A DNA stretch of 40,295 nt, from assembly GCA_007125355.1 (NCBI GenBank), contig SLDG01000041.1, positions 1 through 40,295 of the forward strand, in the 5' to 3' direction. The notes under the pieces were generated by a model, which did not search any database, was not told where the DNA came from, and saw only the letters and a list, made by a program, of their open reading frames with translations. This stretch comes from Balneolales bacterium. Lineage in GTDB: Bacteria; Bacteroidota; Rhodothermia; Balneolales; Cyclonatronaceae. Below are positions 31,921 through 37,208 of the stretch, piece by piece (within the stretch, counting starts at the first letter, position 1; each line of letters begins with the position of its first letter). Made by a program: the position numbers and the translations under genes.

Positions 31921-32152
31921 TCCGCTACTAATGACAGAGATGCTCAGTGATCTGTCAAGGGTTTGTTGTCCCAAAAGACCTGTCAGGTTTTTGCGCTTAG
32001 GTTCCTATTTACAATAAAATGACCCATAAAACCTGACAGTTCTGCGGCATATTAGACTTGACTTGACACTAGCGGCGATTGAGCGGAACCGAAACCAAAG
32101 CGGTTATTGAGCTATTTTCTAAGGACAAACTAACTCTGTCATTAGTAGCGGA
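31921..32152. mobile_element. MITE-like foldback element, copy A (nested inverted repeats)
   Basis: Outer 19-bp perfect IR TCCGCTACTAATGACAGAG (31921-31939) / CTCTGTCATTAGTAGCGGA (32134-32152); inner 12-bp IR CTGTCAGGTTTT (31980-31991) / AAAACCTGACAG (32028-32039). Confidence 0.6.
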
Positions 32153-32487
32153 ATGCTGGCCTCGCAAAATCGCCAAGTGCAATAAAGGTAGTCCGGCATG
32201 TAGTCGAAACATTAGTGGATTAGGCTTCAATATGCTCTCGGGTTGTATAGACTATCCTTCGCCTACTCCGAGGAAACCAACAGAGCTTAAAGTAACCATT
32301 AGGGATCGGCCGCTCCCCGATAAATGCGGGACGCGGCAGGATGACGATGCTTTTAAGAGATAATTTTCTAATTCAGAAAGCTAATGGCATTATAATTTTG
32401 TATCTTAGCAAATTGGAGAATAATGAGCAATTATAGCTTATTGTTCCTTTAACTCGCTTTATTTAACTTAATCGGAATAACCTGTAC

Positions 32488-36804: not shown

Positions 36805-36910
36805 GTTTTTAAAGGATAAATATGGCCTGAGAAACTTTTTCGGGAATGCTTTGCCTCAACAAGAACAAATATTTTATGGCATACCTTAAGAACATGGCAC
36901 CCGCGTACCC

Positions 36911-37002
36911 TACTAATGACAGAGTTGGTTTGTCCAAAGAAAATAGCTCAATAACCGCTTTGTTTCTGCTCCGCTCAACCACCGCTACAGCATCTCTGTC
37001 AT
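36911..37002. mobile_element. MITE-like foldback element, copy B (compact, inverted relative to copy A)
   Basis: Arms ATGACAGAG (36916-36924) / CTCTGTCAT (36994-37002); 36911-36978 is the reverse complement of 32079-32147 with about 5 mismatches and 1 indel. Confidence 0.6.
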
Positions 37003-37208
37003 ATACATCAAATGTATCTGTCGTAAGCGCAGATATTAGGGCCTCATAATGACAGTCTTTGACTTCGTACTTCAGTCTCTTTCACCATAACCTCATTTTA
37101 TACTTGTTTTAAAAAGTCAAATGGTATAACTTCAATAATTAGTTATAAATTCTTGTAAATACAACTGATCATTTAGTTCAATTTGTATCCTATATACCGA
37201 CTATACCG

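Follow-up and report, generated by a model that had tools for sequence, protein, structure and literature searches.

E, the 133-bp unit represented by copy B at 36910-37042, is one of a genuine family of small mobile elements that are target-specific and restricted to one lineage; the family is ordinary in kind and notable for its target rule and its nested history. E is probably a non-autonomous element inserted by a recombinase supplied in trans, and the longer relative of copy B in the same region, copy A, probably arose by a later fusion. The window, i.e. the whole stretch of 40,295 nucleotides analysed here, is contig C9 of a draft bin of 2.84 Mb (362 contigs, 85% complete). Together, these repeats provide independent insertions and uninserted controls within one genome, from which the target rules can be read.

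A 121-bp query around copy B recovers the E core at 20 places in the 2.84-Mb draft genome (E-value < 1e-18), and the ends alone occur at about a dozen further places. The resemblance is thus far more than a chance match and extends well beyond one pair, bearing out the suggestion of the initial annotation of a dispersed family with common ends and variable interiors. Copy B (plus strand, no ORF) was aligned with 12 other full copies, and its excision restores an uninserted repeat. These thirteen full copies of the common type are 133-135 bp long and about 90% identical on average (mean pairwise identity 0.90), full copies in general being 82-98% identical. The left end, CTACTAATGACAGAG (36910-36924, plus strand), with its boundary taken from uninserted hosts, has 21 exact copies in the assembly; allowing up to 2 mismatches, it occurs 28 times versus 4 times for a reversed control pattern. 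The right end (37001-37042, plus strand; 21 copies compared) had been placed at 37002, but alignment of the flanks shows that E continues past this limit to ...GATATTAGGGC, so that the true end is at 37042 and a right-end hairpin had been cut off. The two ends, CTACTAATGACAG and GATATTAGGGC, are weakly alike when inverted.

The hairpin in question (ATCT..CG TAAG CG..AGAT, about 37016-37034, plus strand) has a helix, helix 2, that is paired in 92% of cells across the 21 copies, with 5 cells changed on both sides. Its covariation score was reached by 0 of 500 shuffles, which is moderate evidence because kinship among copies may by itself push a score above such shuffles in the absence of structure. 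The left end of the common type pairs only with the inner CTCTGTCAT arm. A second interior type, with a GTCATCCCGCA...TGCGGGATGAC palindrome between the same ends, is found at L186, L188, L195, L184, L189 and L190, and in a large-interior version, three copies have a 121-bp insert at a shared position; interiors that can be exchanged between the same ends are what would be expected if only the ends matter. Further nesting was seen: an insert with AAGCCTGACATGTCGAGATACCCGAATCCGCGTTAGCGGGCAAT..., at GATC/GGAAGATC, lies in the second interior type (L185, L186, L188 and L195), and the start of an IS110-like element lies inside an E copy at L178 (contig C122, 2816-3092).

E occurs in a single orientation at sites immediately before CTCACCATGAC (after GTCATGGTGAG on the other strand), within the arm of palindromic repeats that carry the CGTC tag. 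Of about 20 right ends that could be read, nearly all continue with CTCACCATGAC or something close to it. The same flanking sequences occur elsewhere without E, as ...CCGGCATTCCG joined to CTCACCATGACGGGG..., ...CCCGCCTG joined to CTCACCATGACGGGG... and ...CTGCTCCG joined to CTCACCCTGAC..., which places E, always in one orientation, at a fixed point ahead of CTC---ATGAC. By kind, the uninserted hosts comprise 6 H1 hairpins, 5 H2 hairpins and about 13 of the CTGCTCCG type; they were counted in 0.9 Mb of stretches chosen partly for holding E, which biases the ratio of empty to filled hosts. Comparison with these empty hosts limits any target duplication to CT at most. In full copies, CT is found both at the start of the left end and just after the right end, two bases that by themselves are weak evidence, and the element end CTACTAATGAC resembles the target CTCACCATGAC.

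The hosts carry the tag CGTC or TGTC followed by AT... and, read backwards, give CGTCATGGTGAG. They are REPs of the CGTC-tagged kind, an assignment made from the tag and the following AT rather than from a formal model. CGTC-tagged REPs are known from, among other groups, Bacteroidetes and Chlorobi (PMC3733652). Beside them, an abundant GTAG-tagged palindrome, GTAGAGACGCAAGATTTTGCGTCTCTAC, is present genome-wide (e.g. L168 about 3520 and L183 about 7400). Copy B itself lies in a host that differs from the H1, H2 and CTGCTCCG hosts: an R5 repeat of the GGGAGATTTCTCGG...TACCCTCGAAATGACA family, whose left part occupies 36819-36909 and whose right remainder, CTCATAATGACA, occupies 37043-37054 (both plus strand). 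Without E, the site would read CACCCGCGTACC followed directly by CTCATAATGACAG, and the joined flanks, ...CACCCGCGTACCCTCATAATGACAG, align to an uninserted R5 copy in L167 with a score of 37.5, the best of 200 shuffles reaching 21.5.

Copy A (31925-32148, no strand assigned) has a different history. The strongest inverted repeat in the window pairs 32093-32148 with 36910-36965 (56 nt, 93%); when extended, 36910-36988 matches the reverse complement of 32070-32148 (the part of copy A, minus strand, that comprises its E left end and core) at 88.7% over 79 bp; the alignment contains a single indel, and its longest stretch of exact identity is 24 bp. The inverted similarity that first drew attention to the pair is thus real (89% over 79 bp), and 36989-37002 is indeed the exact reverse complement of 31931-31944 over 14 bases. 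The initial annotation went on to describe a compact copy B and a longer copy A, both with the order left arm, core, right arm. Copy A does hold extra sequence, but copy B is the complete element and copy A the rearranged one, and the common order does not hold, as the outer end of copy A (31925-31939, plus strand) is a second left end, in a host of the CTGCTCCG^CTCACCCTGAC type of which about 13 uninserted examples exist in the sample. Similarly, the roughly 100 bp of extra interior are present, but they are a separate, unrelated, MITE-like insertion element of 121 bp (31948-32068, minus strand) at the inner CTAG, with CTAG on one side and a degenerate TCAG on the other. Beyond it lies the second left end and no E right end. 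Copy A was consequently rejected as the full-length form, since it lacks a right end and holds a separate element.

The simplest account of copy A would be a deletion between two opposite E copies at a shared 9-bp word, ATGACAGAG, so that two left ends now face each other; copy A would then be a later, probable fusion that also holds the 121-bp element. On its other side, copy A is bordered by the H1 hairpin (ATGCCGG...CCGGCATTCCG; 32149-32211, minus strand), part of a CGTC-tagged REP, and another dispersed repeat (GCATCGTCATCCTGCCGCGTCCCGCATTTATCGGGGAGCGG) lies at 32310-32356 (no strand assigned). The 121-bp element has 12 copies in the 0.9 Mb sampled, mostly with CTAG on both sides and several far from E; the family, with its CTAG target duplications, was seen inside E and elsewhere (L178, L179, L181, L189, L193, L195, L203, L228 and L249). 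Repeats such as E and the 121-bp element make up the extra length between the anti-sigma gene and parA, a gap of 836 bp here, where most relatives have about 205-290 bp. Nesting of such repeats, as with E in its hosts, breaks draft assemblies and mimics 'inverted copies'.

Outside this genome, E was found on one shared contig only. Plasmids and phages gave no match, one viral match (L084) being discarded as a chance match inside an apparent phage tail-fibre gene, and a search with one pattern (21 specified bases) was likewise empty across 84,980 species genomes, a set from which records of the own genome may be left out. Among 60 relatives, only the sister bin G002 matched, on one contig; as this contig and C122 of the own bin share 99.5% identity, it is likelier to be shared or misbinned than to reflect transfer. 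A literature search by sequence words for repeats with the GAGCGGAGTCGAA motif found no paper. E looks like a recent, local expansion.

How E reached its sites can be approached from the target itself. The target choice, the fixed orientation, the lack of terminal inverted repeats, a duplication of at most CT and the likeness of end and target are consistent with site-specific recombination and count against ordinary DDE-type MITEs. We propose that a recombinase supplied in trans would insert E just before CTCACCATGAC, at one position and in one orientation, copying at most CT; a circular intermediate would then have the RE-LE junction ...GATATTAGGGC-CT-ACTAATGACAG.... In keeping with a mobile element, 26 of 27 tested copies lie outside ORFs >= 110 aa. 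Among enzymes, we read E as most like the products of IS110-type (DEDD, bridge-RNA) recombinases, because of the target choice, the CT on both sides and the likeness of CTACTAATGAC to CTCACCATGAC, and because E has neither terminal inverted repeats nor a target duplication. The assignment of E's presumed mobility to such an enzyme is tentative. No autonomous parent with E's ends was found in this assembly (an 85% complete bin), nor was any IS110 transposase over the Pfam cut-off; the assembly holds one 42-aa N-terminal IS110 fragment with a weak match (E 0.009 in Pfam, 0.001 in NCBIfam). This absence is not final, since the bin is incomplete. IS copies are often lost from bins of such completeness, and there is no relative close enough to reveal an unoccupied orthologous site.

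The main rival among enzymes is an HUH (Y1) transposase of the IS200/IS605 or RAYT kind, which would have mobilised E; we consider this possible but doubtful. It would suit an element that, on the other strand, lies 3′ of TGAG with a hairpin close to that end, that has no inverted repeats or duplication, that has a one-sided fixed target word and orientation, and whose conserved subterminal right-end hairpin carries compensatory changes. The last bases of E, moreover, are GTAG, which is the classical REP tag (PMC3733652), and there is one Y1 transposase gene in the assembly. Yet the flanks of this gene hold other repeats, of the GCCGTAGGCAC and CCGTGGGATGAATCCCACGG types, none of them E, so that RAYT was rejected as E's owner; the target requirement seems to exceed four or five bases; and neither the CT on both sides nor the likeness of end and target is accounted for. 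The gene (L265, contig C346, 217-678, minus strand; IS200/RAYT-like) is the only one of its type in the assembly, whose incompleteness may hide others. Alternatively, E could be immobile by itself, with the composite of host hairpin, E and tail having spread as a unit or by gene conversion, as suggested by most copies having an H1 left flank and a right tail in common. Against this, similarity among the flanks of E copies (0.745) is no higher than between these flanks and empty hosts (0.773), as compared with 0.89 for E itself, and E sits in at least four host contexts, with empty hosts of the same kinds available. Host flanks are thus more diverged (74%) than E (89%), and the insertions are therefore independent of host descent; E arrived later, in hosts already divergent by then, and spread of the composite, already disfavoured, is improbable.

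The remaining alternatives give E a function. A structural RNA or terminator kept for its role in transcripts would fit an element whose copies are intergenic and mostly between tandem genes, which has a hairpin with compensatory changes and whose copy A folds strongly (z -6.8). However, the interior is exchangeable, the presence of E tracks the target repeat rather than a gene class, and E is missing from relatives apart from the one shared contig; with no Rfam family in the window, a known RNA family was rejected as its identity, and we regard a role of this kind as very unlikely. Still less probable is that E is part of an integron, with its left arm as an attachment site for cassettes. This idea draws on contig C63, where E's CAGAG^TT is continued, exactly at the G^TT crossover, by a toxin-antitoxin-like cassette bearing a typical attC, and on the presence of an integron integrase in the genome (TIGR02249, 442 bits). 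It is opposed by there being one such case only, by the arms of E in the consensus of full copies, which have GTT first and AAC last, the reverse of the attC box order (RYYYAAC ... GTTRRRY), and by the lack of an E left end at the start of the integrase contig C224. On C63 (L192), reading the minus strand from 1676, the E left end CAGAG leads directly into the cassette, a HigBA-like toxin-antitoxin pair with an 89-bp attC, the junction falling exactly at G^TT, and then comes a further cassette ORF to the contig end; the integrase lies at 295-1251 of C224 (L271, plus strand; cut-off 265 bits), in a bacterium with dispersed cassettes. Finally, copies A and B are inverted to each other and 4.8 kb apart, and they had been proposed to invert the parA-TPR segment by recombination, which would make them the sites of an invertible DNA switch. 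We found no support for such inversion: sigma factor, anti-sigma, parA, parB, DUF5683 and LOG stand in the same order and direction in the window and in nine relatives of the family (all those in which both sides of copy A's position are seen), as is TPR in the eight whose contig reaches it. The parA-TPR segment therefore keeps its ancestral orientation, and at most a low-frequency inversion, not a fixed one, is conceivable, in a comparison that covers the copy A side, as the gene beyond TPR varies among relatives. In addition, E copies are scattered over the genome, no dedicated invertase lies beside copies A and B, and homologous recombination would find little to work with in a repeat of 79 bp at 89% identity whose exact matches reach 24 bp at most. 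The switch was rejected on the strength of the synteny and is the least probable reading of all.

Compared with known systems, E shares features with several classes. Like RAYT-mobilised REPINs and BIMEs, it is small, structured and ends in GTAG; unlike them, it is not a pair of REP hairpins, and the only Y1 gene here is flanked by other repeats. Its hosts have the same CGTC/TGTC tag and following AT... as the CGTC-tagged REPs described by Di Nocera et al. 2013 (PMC3733652), whereas E itself is an insert in such repeats, several times longer and, as far as searched, confined to one genome. CGTC-tagged palindromic repeats have no known transposase of their own (PMC3733652). Bacterial MITEs such as NEMIS, ERIC and RUP resemble E in size, lack of coding capacity, intergenic position and multiple dispersed copies. 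Unlike MITEs, which have terminal inverted repeats of 15-30 bp and a target site duplication of fixed length, E lacks perfect terminal inverted repeats and any duplication beyond CT; the 121-bp CTAG element of copy A fits this class better than E does.

The closest parallels come from IS110 family members that insert at fixed points in REPs (PMC1525189; PMC11208160). Relative G007 provides a further REP-targeting element in the same family: an IS110-type element was observed inside CGTCATC...TCATCCCG repeats (L287, L289 and L290). E differs from the REP-inserting elements in being 133 bp long, in having no recombinase gene and no known IS110 parent with its ends, and in its hosts, which are CGTC-tagged rather than GTAG-tagged; no account of such a class of non-autonomous IS110 elements was found. 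One conceivable, rather speculative extension is that E is a minimal passenger, a 133-bp donor with an exchangeable interior that a bridge-RNA (IS110-type) recombinase would move in one orientation to CGTC-tagged repeats; if the enzyme is of this type, E would show how short a donor it can move. What E has in common with IS621, ISPpu9, ISPpu10, ISPa11 and ISRm19 is a single exact position inside a palindromic repeat, no need for terminal inverted repeats and the same short core on both sides, CT in E as in IS621 (PMC1525189, PMC11208160).
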